Part shown: in pieces, positions 10,700-31,558 of the stretch | Layout of the letters: each line of letters opens with the position of its first letter | Position numbering within the stretch: the first letter of the stretch is position 1 | Origin: Rhizophagus irregularis | Taxonomy: Eukaryota; Glomeromycota; Glomeromycetes; Glomerales; Glomeraceae | DNA length: 64,000 nucleotides | Assembly: GCF_026210795.1 (NCBI RefSeq) | Contig: NC_089458.1 | Location: 620,001 to 684,000 of the forward strand | Direction of reading: 5' to 3' | Program-made: the position numbers and the translations under genes | The notes under the pieces: model-generated | Database searches by the model: none | The model's input: the letters and a program-made list of their open reading frames with translations, nothing else | Told to the model about the DNA's origin: nothing

Positions 10700-13193
10700 A
10701 TGCAAGTAGCTCATGATATTACAGATTTTCAGGACGGCGAAGAACGCATTTTAGTTTTAAAAGACTCAAGCATTCTTGAAAATGAAGGTATGTGTGTTTG
10801 TTATTTAAATTCTGTTATACCCTTTTATTTAACCATTTTATTTGTAGAGGAAGGTGATCAGCTAGTTTCAGTACAACTTGAAGAACAACAAAAGCTTAAG
10901 AAGAATTTAGAAAATAAAAAGAAAAAACCAATTTATACTGGTTATGATGACGAAGAATTTAATTTTGGAGGAGGAGGAATACCTAAAAAGAATTTCTTAT
11001 CACATTATGATGAGGAAATTGAAGGAAATAAGAGAATGGTAAATTTATTTAATGATTTAATAATGGATTATATTATCTCTATTATTAATGTTGATCTCTA
11101 TTTATAATTGTTCTAGGGTTTTAAATTAGGAAACGATGGTACTGTTCAATTAGATGAAGATGAACGAAGGAATAAAGTAGCAGAGAACTTAAAGTCAAGA
11201 TCAATTTCTTTGTCTTATGATAGTAATATCATTTTATTAGCTATTTTGGAAAAATTATATAATATTAGATTACAATTAATAAACAAAGTTTGTTCATTTT
11301 GTATATAGAGATGATTGAAATTAAAGATTATTATACTAAAGAAGAATCTGAAATAACTTTCAAGAAACCAAAGGTATGTGGTTTTTTTTGTTTATTTTTA
11401 AATCAACAAAATTAGATTTAAAAGATTGGTTACTATTTTTTTTAAATTGTAAATTTCATTAACCAAAATTAACATCAGTTTATGCATAATAGACTAAAAA
11501 GAAGAAGAAAGTAAGGAAGAAGGTTGTTGATGACGAAGACGAACAAACAGTAAATGATCCTAATACAATGGAAATTGATAATTCACCTTCTGTAGTAACA
11601 TCAAACCAAGCTAGAAGACAAAATTTTGATGATGTTAGTTTTGTTGATGATGATGATCTCCAACAGGCTTTAGCTAGAGCAAGAAAAATGGCAACAAGAA
11701 AAGTAACAAAAACAAATGTTGAAGAGATTGCTAGAATTTGTATGTTTACTATTTCCATTTACATAAATTTTCAAGCTTGTTAAACTAATATGATTTGTTT
11801 TATTAGTGACAGAAACTAGAGATGAAACAAATGAAGATAATGAGACACCTGGAGAAGGATTAGTAATCTCTGATACATCAGAATTTGTTAGATCTCTTAC
11901 TGTTGCTCCAACAATAACTAAACCTGTTGAAGCTGAACTTGATATACAAGATCAACAATCTAATTCTGAACCTGTGGATCAAGAAAAAGAAGAAGTTGAA
12001 ACATATGATGTTGTAATGGATGAAGTTACAGAAGAGAAAAAAGGTGGTTGGAAAGAGGCAGGAAATATAGAGGATAGTGATATGGCTCATATTCAAGATG
12101 AACCAAAATTAGTAAGTCAGTTTATTAGAATAGTAATTATAATCTAGTTATCAAATTATTTATTTATTATTTATTTAGACTGGCGTAGTTGAAGAAGAAC
12201 CTTTGGTTAGTAGTGGTATGGCCGCAACATTAGCCCTTTTACAACAGAAAGGTAATGTTTAATAACAAACTATTTAAATGGTTTGCAATATAATAATATT
12301 CCATTAAAATGTAATTAATTTTTATATAGGTTTTTCAATTAAACCCAATGAAGAGCAGCTTGAAAAAGAACGAATCCAAAGAGAGCGACAAAAATGGCTT
12401 GCTGAACAACGTAAAAAAGATCAAGAAAGACAAAATGAAAGGGAAAAGGAAAAACAAAAAGCAAAAGAAAAAGGATATCGTGGCGGTGGTCGAGATAGTG
12501 AAAGTAGTTATAGAGATCGTGAGCATCTGCGAGAAATGGAAGCAAGGTTCAAAGATTATAAACCAGATATTAATTTGGAATATGTTGATGAATTTGGTAA
12601 TCAACTTACACCAAAAGAAGCATTTCGACAATTATCACATAAATTTCATGGAAAATCTTCTGGAAAAGCTAAAACAGAAAAACGTCTCAAGAAGCTTGAA
12701 GAAGAACGTAAGCTTAAAGCTATGAGTAGTATTGATACGCCATTGAATATGGCTACGGCTTTGCAAGAGAGGCAAAAGGCTAGTGGAAGTGCACATGTTG
12801 TATTGTCTGTTGGTAATAGAGCGTACGTAATATTTATTTTAATTAAGCTAAAATGAATTGAAAATTTTACTTATTATATATTTTTATATTTTTAGTGTAG
12901 TTCCTCCAAGCATGACATTAGGTAATAATGGAAAACACTCGGGATCTTCCAAGGCATCTGGAACTGCCTCAATAAGTAGTTCCAGTATTATTACAGTAAA
13001 TGGTGGATTAACAGGTCAAAGTATGAATGCACCTGAAAGAGAAAAGGTATATAATTTTTTTTTTGCCTGGTTTGTAATAATAATTTTAATTTGTATTTTA
13101 TCTTTTTTTTTTTACATTTAGGTAACATTTGGATTGAAACGAAAAGCTGAACAAGAAATGGAAAAGCCATCCAAGAAATCTAAGGATCAATAA
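10700..13193 (+). CDS. SNU66: SART1/Snu66-type U4/U6.U5 tri-snRNP protein
   Basis: Exons: 10700-10787, 10848-11038, 11117-11222, 11309-11373, 11493-11739, 11807-12111, 12179-12251, 12330-12822, 12896-13046, 13122-13193. All junctions are GT-AG and in phase, giving 596 aa. SART1/Snu66 is a nuclear scaffold protein of the tri-snRNP needed for spliceosome activation. Family landmarks in order: DGEERILVLKDSSIL (residues ~12-27), SHYDEEIEG (~88), ESEITFKKPK followed by a Lys run (~142-160), TSEFVRSL (~255), EEPLVSSGMAATLALLQQKG (~340-360), YKPDINLEYVDEFG and the hallmark LTPKEAFRQLSHKFHGKSSG (~430-465), SSIDTPL and VVLSVGNRA. The ATG used is the first in frame, after an oligo-T leader. Compared with animal and yeast relatives, the N-terminal ~150 residues with the LRAKLGLKPL-type motif are absent; an undetected upstream exon is possible. 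Confidence 0.9.
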
Positions 13194-25742: not shown

Positions 25743-28700
25743 ATGGATACGAAAATTCTTAATATTTACAATTTACCTAGACCTTTAATCAATGTTATAA
25801 TAAAACATATAGGAATAAATCAAGATTGGATAGTTATTAAAATAATTCCATTTAAAATTCATGTATTTCATAAAGAGACTCTCAAAGAAATTTGGAAATT
25901 TCCTTTTGACCCAATTGATATATGTCAAGATTTTTTGTATAACTCTCCTGCAAAATCAAGTGTTAACATATCCTTTTTGGTTTTAACAAAAGATGGATCC
26001 ATATGGAGAATCCAATCTAATGTTCAAAGAAATAAGAGGTTCGTTTGGCATAACATTTTTGTAATCTTTTTAAAATAAAAGAATAATTTAAAAACTTTTG
26101 TATCAGGGATTTTGATTCTCATCAAAATAACAAAGAAGCGTTGCCAACACAATTAAGACAAATCAGGAAAATTAATGAAGTTGGCAGTACATCATCAAAA
26201 TTTTCTTCACAAAATATTTATCAGCCAAATAAGAACAGTTATTGTTTGTTTGTCCCGCCTCCTGTATTTACTGTCGGAAGTGAATATTTAATTTTCTCAA
26301 AAGAAGGACTTTGTTCATTATTCCCTTGTAATTTATTTAATGATGATGGAATTTTACTTAGAACAAAAGATGGAGAAATTGGATTTCTATCATTAATTGA
26401 TAGAATAATATCAGAAAATAGTTTATTTATTCCATTCAATGATATTGAAGATACAAAAAATGCTACATGTTTTTTGAATGATATCCTTTATAATATATTT
26501 GTTCTTTGAATATATGTTTATTATTAATTATCCTTAACATAATTTATGAAATCACTTCGTATTCATGATTCAACAAAAGAATCAGTCAAAAGGCCATCAA
26601 ATATTACACTTATTTCAAAAGAATTGGCCGAGGCTATATTTAGATCCACACAGTAATTTTGATTTATCTTATTTTTGTATTTTCAATTTTTAACTTTCAT
26701 TTATTCAAAAAAAAAAAAAATATTTAGTTATGAAACAGATCTCTTAATAACTGGCCATTCAAGTGGCATCGTATCATTTCATTATTTTTGTAAAGGTGAG
26801 GTTGAATCAGACACAGTTACTTCGCTAAAAGTAAGTAGGTAAAAAAGGAAAGAAATTGCATCATCTTCATTCATATTTGTTCACTAAAAATTTTTATTAA
26901 AATTTATAGCAACCTATTCAAGCCATTTATACATTATATTTAAAACATGAAGACCCTGAAAGAACCAAATTTGAATCTACTTTGCTTCGACCTAAACCTA
27001 ATTTGAGTAATATTCACAATGCTCTGCTTTTAATTGGGTATGTATACAACTATTCAAATTAATAATAAAACCTTAGCTAATTTCTCCTTTATCTTAAAGT
27101 GCGAAAGGAACGATATCATTATCAAGTGCTAGATATGATAGTAATTCATCTCTGACTTTGTGTTATAAAGAATACTATGTCCCCAATCCAGTTCATTCGT
27201 CCTTTGTCTATAAGGTGTTACTTCAAAAGAAATTAAAAATAATTTGAACAAAGATCTAATTATTTTCGTTATTCGTAGAATCGGTTGGTAGTAACAGCTG
27301 GAGAAGGTCGAATAATTGTCATAAATTTTGATAGAAATATGTTTTCAGATGGTATAAGAACTTTATAAAAAGGATGAATTATTACGAACATGAATATTTA
27401 TTTATTAAAAAATTAAAAATTATTTTATTATAGGAAAGCTTGTTTCTTTACACACAATTCCCGTAATTTTTCCAAAAGGAACCGTTAGGTTGTGCCATTA
27501 TATTACTTCAGAACAAAATTCATCTGATGGAATATTTTATGCTTTGACAGTCAATGGAAGATTAATTCGCTCTCAATTTTCGCTTACAAGGTCCATACAA
27601 AAGCAATTTTTGTAAAATTGCAAAATTAGAAGATATTTACATATCTTTTTTTATTTTAGCGATCAAACTCCAAAGCATATGATGAGTGTTGAACAACTGA
27701 AGAATGAAATTCAAAAACAAACGACTATTATCAAAGAATTGACATCTAAACAAGCAATATTGGACAAAATTAATGAGGTACGAATTCGGAAGAAAACGTA
27801 ATTGTTTGATATTTTGGTTTGTAATTTGCTTCATTCATATCAGGAATTGAATCCTGCGATTATCGCTCGTAATGAAGTCGTTCAGGAATTACAACGTGTT
27901 TATAAAAAACGCGAAGCCGGACAATTGGATAAAAATAATTCTCCATTAAATGTTGAATGTTTTCCGATAACTCTGCCATGTTCTATGAATGGAAGCATTA
28001 CGCAAAGGATATTTTTAAGAATTCGCTTAACAAGTAGGATTGGAATTGATTGGTCAAAATGGTGGTCATGTATCCTTAAATAAATAAGAACATATTTTAA
28101 AGTCTAAGTAATAATATGAATGTCCTTAATTTTAAGATTCTTTGTAGTACTTGTTACTATGACAAATAATAGATCTTTTCATTCTTCAAATAATGAAAAA
28201 ACTAAGCGAGAGAATTTATGTTATTCTGTGTCATTATTGGATATGACTACTACGTGGTAAAAACAAATATTCTCTTCATTTTTATTGCGATATTTATTAG
28301 AATTTTAATTTGTTTTTTCTGTAGGGAACGAGATATTGAAATAAATTTACGATTTTTACATTTTCCAATTTTCATTAAACTTGCATTGTGTTTTGCACCT
28401 CCATCACCAATAGATCATACAAACGACTCTCAATATAAACGTAAATATAGTATAAAAAATCATAGAATTCGAATAAATAACAACTCTTCTAATAATTTTT
28501 TTTTTTTAAAAAAAATTAGCGCAAGCGACATATTTTCCCTTGATGAATTTGCAATATGACATATTGGATTTTATAAAACCATGTTCTCAACACGTGTTAC
28601 AAAGATTACAAGAAGAGCGTCATTTTACAGTATATCCTTCTTTGCCTGATTTTATCACACCATTTGATAGTGATTTTTTTGCCACAAAAAATGATTTTAG

Positions 28701-29825
28701 GAGATCTATTGAAAATTTAATAAATAAATTAAATAAAGGATCTGAGGTAAAGGATTTTTTTTGTTGTTGCTTCTATTGTTGTAATTCTGATCGTTTAATT
28801 TTTTCTCATTTATATATATATACATAGAAAACTAAACCTTATTCGGATTTTATTTCCTCATTAAACATTAATTCATCATTTATAAAATTTTTATTGAGAT
28901 CAAGTGATATTGTAGAAACAATCGATTTAGAAGATAATAATAATATTTTAATTAATGATGACGAAGCTTGGAAACGATTTTTAGCAATGTTATTAGGAGA
29001 AAACGTTGAAACGTAAATTATATTTTATTACTTTCATTTTTGAGATATCATCAGTAAATAATCGACTTACAATTTATATTCCAACTTAGAGATGAGTTAA
29101 AAGAGATAATTAAATCTGTTGATTATGCAATATTTACAACATCAATAAGCCTAGAACCTGTAATATTGAATTTGAAAAAATGTAAGCTGGAGAAAATTTT
29201 TTTTTTATGAAAATCTTGAAATTATTTTACCTTAAATTCTCTTATATAGTAAATCCGATAGAATGCGAGAATAAAATTCCGATTAATTCGATTCCCGTCC
29301 AAATAAAAATTACATGTCGTACACCCGAAGTATTGTTACTTGTTGAAGAAGCGTTATTATCAAGATTACAAGATTTTTGTATTGAAGTTCAAAAGGATGA
29401 TTCCGTTGACTCAGTTGAATTAGTCTCCAGGATAACTAATAATCATTCCGGTAAGTTATTCGTAAATTAAATTTAATTCCTTTTTATTTAAAATATCAAA
29501 CTTACACAACTATGATTCTTAAAACTATTAAGAAAAACCTATAATATCAGTTGATTTAACCAATCAATTAAATCTTATAAAAGAAGATTATGATATATTA
29601 ACTAAAATGCTTGATGAAAAACCAAATGATATTAATTCTAAAGCTAACCAAGAAGGTATGAATATGCATGAAGAGAAAAATGAGATGTCATTTGATAATG
29701 CTTTTGGCGATTGGAATGAATTAGGAATGCTGGCTAAAAGATTAGAGGATAGATTTGTCGAAATTGTTAAAATCGTTAGAAAAGAATTGGAAAATAATTG
29801 GGTAAATGGAGTTGTTGAAATCTAG
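25743..29825 (+). CDS. FAAP100-like Fanconi core-complex protein (~1000 aa, ~16 exons, two U12-type introns)
   Basis: First exons: 25743-26038, 26107-26480, 26556-26652, 26728-26830; the chain continues in phase to the stop at 29,825. FAAP100 with FANCB and FANCL forms the catalytic module of the Fanconi anaemia core ubiquitin ligase that marks FANCD2/FANCI at DNA crosslinks. The layout matches that family: N-terminal beta-propeller-like repeats (LVLTKDGSIWRI, LLITGHSSGIVSFHYF, LVVTAGEGRIIVIN, FYALTVNGRLIRSQFSL), then a coiled coil (VEQLKNEIQKQTTIIKEL ... ARNEVVQELQRVYKKRE, ~27,680-27,920), a beta-rich middle, then WKRFLAMLLGENVE, IPVQIKITC and LLVEEALLSRLQDFC, and a C-terminal helical tail. 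FANCB shares the same fold plan, so that is the main alternative. Identification rests on architecture and short motifs, not on an alignment. It ends 193 bp from the convergent BTB-TLDc gene. Confidence 0.6.
26481..26555 (+). other. U12-type AT-AC intron
   Basis: The donor is ATATCCTTT, exactly the minor-spliceosome AT-AC consensus. The branch site TCCTTAAC lies at 26531-26538, and the acceptor AC is at 26554-26555, 18 nt after the branch A. Splicing G|TT joins ...CFLN to VRIHDSTKESV in frame (phase 1). No GT-AG pair that bridges the intervening stop codons in the right phase was found. Confidence 0.8.
28070..28147 (+). other. U12-type GT-AG intron
   Basis: The donor GTATCCTTA matches the U12 consensus. 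The branch-like TCCTTAAT (28123-28130) sits 18 nt before the acceptor TTTGTAG at 28147. Phase 1 splicing joins ...WSKWWS to LLVTMTNNRSF. The nearer AG (28136) would create an immediate stop. Confidence 0.75.
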
Positions 29826-30018: not shown

Positions 30019-31558
30019 TCAAACGTTATGTCTCTCCTGTTTTTTAATAACCTGAAAAACTTCAAATTCTTCAATAGAAAATTGTTCAGTACTTGTACGT
30101 AATGGTTTTTCATAACTAGTTTGTTTGCATCCACAAGGCTGACCAATTTCAAAATGACCTTTAGGGAATAAATCACCTTTGCCAAATACGGGAGAACAAT
30201 AAACATTACAATAAATAGAATCTTTCGGATCAATTACTCTACTTAAAACATCTTCTTCACCAGGATCCTTTTTTAAACTAAAAATATAACTATCTTTGAG
30301 AGGAGAATTATCTTGTTGATCTTTATTTGAAGAAATGGATTTTTTACTCCAAGTTAAAGGATTATAACCACCAAGTATTTCATCTGAGTTAGCAGGTTTG
30401 ATTAATACAATAGCTTGATTACTTGTTAAAGTAGTTTGACGAAATTCTTGATCACGACTTCCGCGTACAACAAGTTTGAAATAATATGGTATATTTGACG
30501 GCGTGTAAAATGAATTCTGATCATTTGAATCTAATCTATCAATCCAACTTGCAATTTTGGCTGCATGAGAAGGCTTAATAAGAACTGATTGAATTCTTGC
30601 ATGATAATGAGTATATTCTTTTGTTATTACATACATTGGCTTAGTATTAGGAGTATACATTTTTTGAGGTAAAATCCTTTTATAAGCATGAACTTGTCTT
30701 TCAAAATCAACAGGAGACATATTACTCCATCTAATATAAGGAATTAATGGACGTAAAACTATTTCTAATCCAACACAATCTTCATCAGGCCATCTTGCAA
30801 CGTCAGGTATCATTATGGTTGTTTTTAGTTGTCCTATGCCCCATTGTACAATACGCTTCCAAAGTTCTAACTCGCCCATACCAAGATCATCTCTTTGTAA
30901 AAGCCATATAACAGTATCTTCTTCTAATGCTGTAAAATCTTCAGATTTTAATAATAACTCTGGTTCCTGATAAAGTGCTTCTTCCATTGTTTCAGCAAGT
31001 GTTGTACATGTTGGATATTTTTGTCCTGCATTATAAATTAATACAGATTGTTTACCCATCCATAAATATTTTCTTTCTAATAATTCTCCTTGTAAGACCT
31101 CAACTAAAATGTTAAGACATAATTCATCTGCTGCTCCTAAAGCACTTACAATTTGAACTTCATTAAGTTTTTCTACATCAATTGTTGATGCATAAATATA
31201 CCTATAATTTAGTTTATATTTAAGGTGCCATTTTTTTTTTAAAAAAAAAAAAGTTGCATTTAATGACGAAAAAAAATCCATTTTTAATTTACCTTAGAAT
31301 GGTATCGAATGTTTCTGGAGTGATATTAGGTTTCTTAAAAATATATTTTCCATCTTCTTTAATTGCCCATCTACTTGATAATGCTTGACGAAAATACGGT
31401 GATCTCATTCTTAAAATATAATAATGAGCTTTAAATTTTCGTGTATTTTCTCCCTCACCTGCTTCAATAATAACATCATGTTCATCATCATTTTCAAGTA
31501 AATTTATTAAATCATTTGTCAATTCTTGAAATAATCTTGAATTAACTTTTGAAGTCAT
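30019..31558 (-). CDS. BTB-BACK-TLDc domain protein (482 aa)
   Basis: Two exons, 31558-31293 and 31201-30019, joined in phase across a 91-nt intron that contains a T10A12 junction. The BTB domain is at ~20-90 (DVIIEAGEGENTRKFKAHYYIL, RSPYFRQALSSRW). BACK is at ~105-220 (LLLKSEDFTALEE, WLLQRDDLGMGELELWKRIVQWG). TLDc is at ~290-475 (YFKLVVRGSRD, IVLIKPANSDEILGGYNPL, SYIFSL, CSPVFGKGDLF, FSIEEFEVFQVIK). BTB-BACK proteins are often Cullin-3 adaptors; TLDc domains occur in oxidative-stress and V-ATPase-interacting proteins. Large families with this architecture are typical of arbuscular mycorrhizal fungi, one basis for the organism guess. Lines such as SRDQEFRQTTL differ from the usual SRDGF...FH, so the TLDc is somewhat divergent. 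Confidence 0.9.

Follow-up and report, generated by a model that had tools for sequence, protein, structure and literature searches.

In minor splicing, the 5' splice site is read by U11 while U12 pairs with the branch site, one A being bulged out, and U11 is displaced by U6atac, which is brought in paired to U4atac. The distribution of this machinery among fungi is uneven. According to PMC10639083 (Larue and Roy 2023), minor snRNAs and U12-type introns have left no convincing trace in the two largest groups of fungi, and for the arbuscular mycorrhizal fungus Rhizophagus irregularis the same source counts 205 minor introns (0.272% of 75,377), reports all four minor snRNAs and orthologues of RNPC3, ZMAT5, SNRNP35 and SNRNP25, and gives the order of minor intron phases as 1 > 2 > 0. 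Earlier work had described a few U12-type introns in Rhizopus oryzae and Phycomyces blakesleeanus (PMC2846911); the numbers per genome, about 4 and about 20, respectively, are far below that of R. irregularis (PMC10639083). As to the internal geometry of U12-type introns, a review (PMC3584512) places the optimal distance from the branch site to the acceptor at 11-13 nt.

The intron considered here, at positions 26481-26555, is the second of a gene located in the window, by which we mean the whole stretch of 64,000 nucleotides of R. irregularis DNA that was analysed (Table 1). Both this kind of intron and its occurrence in this species have been published, so that we have here a good example rather than a discovery: compared with the 205 minor introns already known, its signals are of the same kind and the snRNA set is identical, and the implied novelty is low because the minor introns of R. 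irregularis have been published (PMC10639083). Both subtypes, AT-AC and GT-AG, are represented in the gene, as they are among the U12-type introns of Rhizopus oryzae and Phycomyces blakesleeanus (PMC2846911).

Table 1. Coordinates of the host gene, of its two predicted U12-type introns and of the candidate U11 loci
Feature	Position	Strand	Remarks
Host gene	25743..29825	+	Hand-built model, 17 exons, 16 introns, 969 aa; one frame open throughout
Exon 2, coding, upstream of the AT-AC intron	26107..26480	+	
Intron 2, predicted U12-type AT-AC, 75 nt, phase 1	26481..26555	+	Sequence and in-phase join; genome pattern match C30:646481-646555
Putative U12-type 5' splice site ATATCCTTT	26481..26489	+	Complementary to the U11 5' end (5 nt) and to U6atac (6 nt)
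Putative branch site TCCTTAAC, branch A at 26536 or 26537	26531..26538	+	7 nt complementary to U12, one A bulged
Acceptor AC	26554..26555	+	18 nt past the last branch-site A (26537)
Exon 3, coding, downstream of the AT-AC intron	26556..26652	+	
Intron 10, predicted U12-type GT-AG, 78 nt, phase 1	28070..28147	+	5' splice site GTATCCTTA; acceptor TAG; genome match C30:648070-648147
Putative branch site of intron 10, TCCTTAAT	28123-28130	+	
U11 locus	L002:1501-1641	-	
U11 locus, contig of the window	L003:1501-1627	+	

The need for an intron is evident from the reading frame. The frame that opens at 26087 and contains exon 2 runs into a TGA at 26507-26509, and removal of 26481-26555 joins exons 2 and 3 in phase 1, stop-free; phase 1 is the commonest minor-intron phase reported for R. 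irregularis (PMC10639083). The first nine nucleotides of the intron agree with RTATCCTT, an agreement with TCCTTRAY is found close to the 3' end, at 26531-26538, and the termini are AT and AC, the AC at 26554-26555 being the first after the branch site, with no AG until 26579. The sequence-only reading, from which this analysis started, had placed the stop, the letters and coordinates of the intron, its two signals, its AC end and the exact in-phase join of the exons just so, and all of them are borne out. In length (75 nt), the intron falls inside the 62-82 nt range of the U2-type introns of the host gene. With the U12-type AT-AC introns of animals and plants it shares the 5' splice site, the branch site, the AC end, phase 1 and the lack of a pyrimidine tract, which is absent all the way from the branch site to the acceptor. 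Unlike their optimum of 11-13 nt, it has 18 nt between the branch site and the acceptor (PMC3584512); the earlier figure of 18 nt is thus correct, while its description as textbook spacing is not.

With a probability of about 0.92, we take 26481-26555 to be a minor-class (U12-type) AT-AC spliceosomal intron that ends with the AC at 26555. What the genome displays directly is the signals, a join that keeps the phase, and snRNA genes that are present and complementary to the signals (see below); from these we infer the splicing event itself. In the proposed sequence of events, U11 would recognise the 5' splice site at 26481, U12 would base-pair with the branch site, one A bulging out, U4atac-paired U6atac would be delivered and would then take the place of U11, and excision at the AC of 26555 would restore the reading frame.

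A genomic reality check is whether the fungus possesses the components that such an intron demands. This check had been proposed along with the U12-type assignment and, once run, it did not speak against the intron: U11, U12, U4atac and U6atac as well as SNRNP25 have matches in the genome, so that the minor-spliceosome reading is supported by the signals, by the snRNA genes and by the SNRNP25 match. Specifically, one match each was found for U12 (68.9 bits) and U6atac (79.9 bits) and two for U11 (71.9 and 55.5 bits), all above the Rfam gathering scores; U4atac, with one match at 55.0 bits, barely passes its cut-off of 53, so that the set of four minor snRNAs is complete, if only just. None of the four gave a match in 14 control genomes, a weak control because these genomes, judging by the nine of them known by name, seem to be prokaryotic. 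The ubiquitin-like domain of SNRNP25 is matched by two adjacent stretches on another contig, C13, with 50.4 and 30.4 bits (cut-off 22.8). The Pfam models of SCNM1 and PDCD7 found no match in the genome and were silent in the controls too, hence this result is not proof of absence.

The predicted snRNAs are complementary to the signals of the intron, the pairings being exact complementary matches computed without a shuffled control. In intron 2, 7 nt of U12 are complementary to TCCTT(A)AC, one A being bulged; at the 5' splice site, 6 nt of U6atac are complementary to TCCTTT and 5 nt of the U11 5' end to CCTTT; the corresponding values for intron 10 of the same gene are 6 nt for U12, 5 nt for U6atac and 4 nt for U11. 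U4atac and U6atac have a 15-nt perfect complement in common.

Inspection by eye of the regions upstream of the snRNA genes revealed some common features. The U12, U4atac and U6atac loci (L001, L004 and L005) have ATCCCATAA in common about 47-65 nt upstream of the start of the Rfam match, followed by a TATAA-like box about 20-35 nt upstream, and the U11 locus L002 carries a similar upstream GTCCCACAA; this shared element is possibly a common snRNA promoter element. The two U11 loci are alike across the RNA, about 40 nt of upstream sequence and part of the downstream flank. At L003, again by eye, the element further upstream is not clearly recognisable, and the U11 gene there is possibly a variant or a pseudogene.

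How likely is it that the signals of the intron came together by chance? Neither of the two motifs is enriched singly: on both strands of the window, RTATCCTT was observed 9 times with 7.38 expected and TCCTTRAY 8 times with 11.70 expected. Only two pairs of these motifs, however, are spaced as in an intron, 42 and 45 nt apart, and these belong to introns 2 and 10. In the window, the AT-AC composite was counted once where 0.005 were expected, and the GT-AG composite once where 0.0025 were expected, both expectations being derived from 400 first-order Markov simulations (2 events and 1 event, respectively). What is unlikely by chance is the pairing of the motifs where the frame needs an intron, not the motifs taken one by one.

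Genome-wide, the AT-AC pattern, composed of exact motifs with gaps of 30-60 and 8-20, has 13 matches versus 4 for the reversed pattern, whereas a scrambled pattern of equal composition has a single match, as does its own reversed control. The GT-AG pattern yields 14 rows (13 distinct places) versus 6 for the reversed control, and thus is, by itself, only mildly enriched. Ten of the 13 AT-AC matches were examined for the position of the AC: in 6 of the 10, an AC ending lies 11-13 nt past the last branch-site A; in two, the only AC is further off, namely in the intron 26481-26555 (18 nt) and in another match (19 nt); the remaining two have ACs at 5, 8 and 17 nt and at 9 and 23 nt, respectively. 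True introns and chance occurrences are probably mixed among the AT-AC matches.

It had been claimed that the stop could not be bridged by any GT-AG pair, and this claim went too far. Enumeration of donors from 26330 to 26506 and of acceptors up to 26639, with only the in-phase and stop-free combinations retained, produced 54 bridging pairs, among them 48 AT-AC, 5 GT-AG (26421-26579, 26421-26585, 26421-26621, 26469-26585 and 26501-26632) and one GC-AG (26462-26632). Since AT and AC are common, AT-AC ends and phase alone mean little; among the 48 AT-AC pairs, ATATCCTT is read at donor 26481 only. The five GT-AG pairs have to be taken seriously as rivals. Scored with a matrix built from the 14 U2-type introns of the host gene alone, their three GT donors reach 0.9, -0.64 and -2.23, values that are equalled or beaten by 53, 71 and 86% of the GTs in the window, and of their five acceptors, four lie between 1.94 and 2.83, inside the range of the gene (-5.7 to 8.42), and the fifth lies at -7.82. 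Because the accepted donor at 27215, when left out of its own matrix, scores -1.8, below two of the three rival donors, and because four acceptors are within range, the scores alone do not exclude the GT-AG rivals. Their lengths are more telling, namely 117-201 nt versus 62-82 nt for the 14 U2-type introns of the gene.

The most plausible version of this alternative is that a U2-type GT-AG intron, either 26469-26585 or 26421-26585, spans the stop and that the U12 motifs are coincidental. Both of these bridges are in phase and stop-free, their donors (-0.64 and 0.9, respectively) outscore the weakest donor accepted in the gene, and the acceptor they share scores 2.83, inside the range of the gene; nevertheless, these donors are of a quality that 53-71% of the GTs in the window match or exceed, and at 117 and 165 nt the two bridges are much longer than the 62-82 nt of the U2-type introns of the gene. 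Moreover, the coincidence would have to produce a U12 composite, which has roughly a 1-in-200 chance per window, in phase exactly where an intron is needed, and would have to do so again for the second U12-type intron of the same gene. The GT-AG bridges are thus disfavoured mainly by length and by the chance argument, to which the splice-site scores add weak support, and we consider a U2-type intron at this place very improbable.

If the minor-class assignment is accepted, the position of the 3' end deserves a separate comment, given the long spacing. The same U12-type intron could end non-canonically, for instance as AT-AT at 26552, either always or as an alternative; this end would also be in phase and, being 15 nt past the last A of the branch site, would come closer to the optimum. 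Among the non-canonical termini of minor introns in animals, AT-AT ranks second in frequency (PMC10639083). However, just 3 nt beyond 26552 there is a canonical AC, between which and the branch site neither another AC nor an AG occurs, and the other U12-type intron of the gene has the same 18-nt spacing; a 3' end other than the AC at 26555 appears, accordingly, improbable.

This second U12-type intron, intron 10, is of the GT-AG subtype. Here too, exactly as in intron 2, 18 nt separate the last A of the branch site from the end of the intron, and an AG that occurs 7 nt past this A is skipped; judging from the sequence, its use would lead to an in-frame stop. With two U12-type introns in the host gene, the minor spliceosome would have to act twice to yield a full-length message.

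The host gene model was built by hand from the sequence, and one could ask whether the stop at 26507 is genuine, the locus being a decayed gene copy, the source of a short protein or the product of an assembly error. Yet the removal of sixteen introns leaves a single open frame of 969 codons, and no other copy of the gene turned up: when residues 1-639 of the 969 were used as the query against the 146.7-Mb genome, all 12 of the 12 matches fell at this locus (C30:645743-648439). We regard a genuine stop as exceedingly improbable and retain the AT-AC intron. Elsewhere in the window, a domain scan that took in 8 of 19 reading frames recorded a stretch of the SART-1 family at 12308-12853 (PF03343, E 5.7e-37), SART-1 being a tri-snRNP splicing factor, and, on the minus strand at 30022-31293, BACK and TLD domains in a reading frame that neighbours the gene.

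As to the function of the host protein, no Pfam family scored above the cut-off. A search of the PDB with the whole protein listed FAAP100, a protein of the Fanconi core complex, with an E-value of 2.3 as the fifth of seven matches, and a search with a 384-residue piece listed it with 0.91 as the second of three, in both cases below unrelated proteins; the sub-threshold match is colinear, residues 327-500 being aligned with 335-515. The FAAP100 family is absent from the Pfam matches at E-values up to 10, where the HMMER filters drop most weak matches, and neither the family profile nor the solved FAAP100 was matched at a significant E-value. For the first 290 residues, the sole PDB match was a pilin at E 0.59, which we rejected as unrelated. 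A distant relationship of the host gene to FAAP100 may be suggested by the colinear match, and we treat it as only a lead.

A literature search for FAAP100 and minor introns together found no paper; a term search of the main text of a paper on human minor introns (PMC6717393) did not find FANC; and in a survey from 2024 that dealt with the Fanconi genes of early-diverging fungi (PMC11061109), FAAP100 occurs at two places of the main text, a gene table and the introduction, at neither of them as a gene found in a fungus. One may picture the host gene as a homologue of FAAP100 in a fungus, with a complete message that depends on two rounds of minor splicing, each with the unusually long spacing of 18 nt; this seems to us unlikely. 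Should it be true, the minor spliceosome would set a limit to the repair of crosslinks in an arbuscular mycorrhizal fungus.

Irrespective of the identity of the protein, the occurrence in one gene of one AT-AC and one GT-AG U12-type intron, both with 18-nt spacing, would bear on how strictly the branch-to-acceptor rule is observed in fungi, and the locus lends support, from a single gene upwards, to the retention of minor snRNAs and U12-type introns by a glomeromycete.
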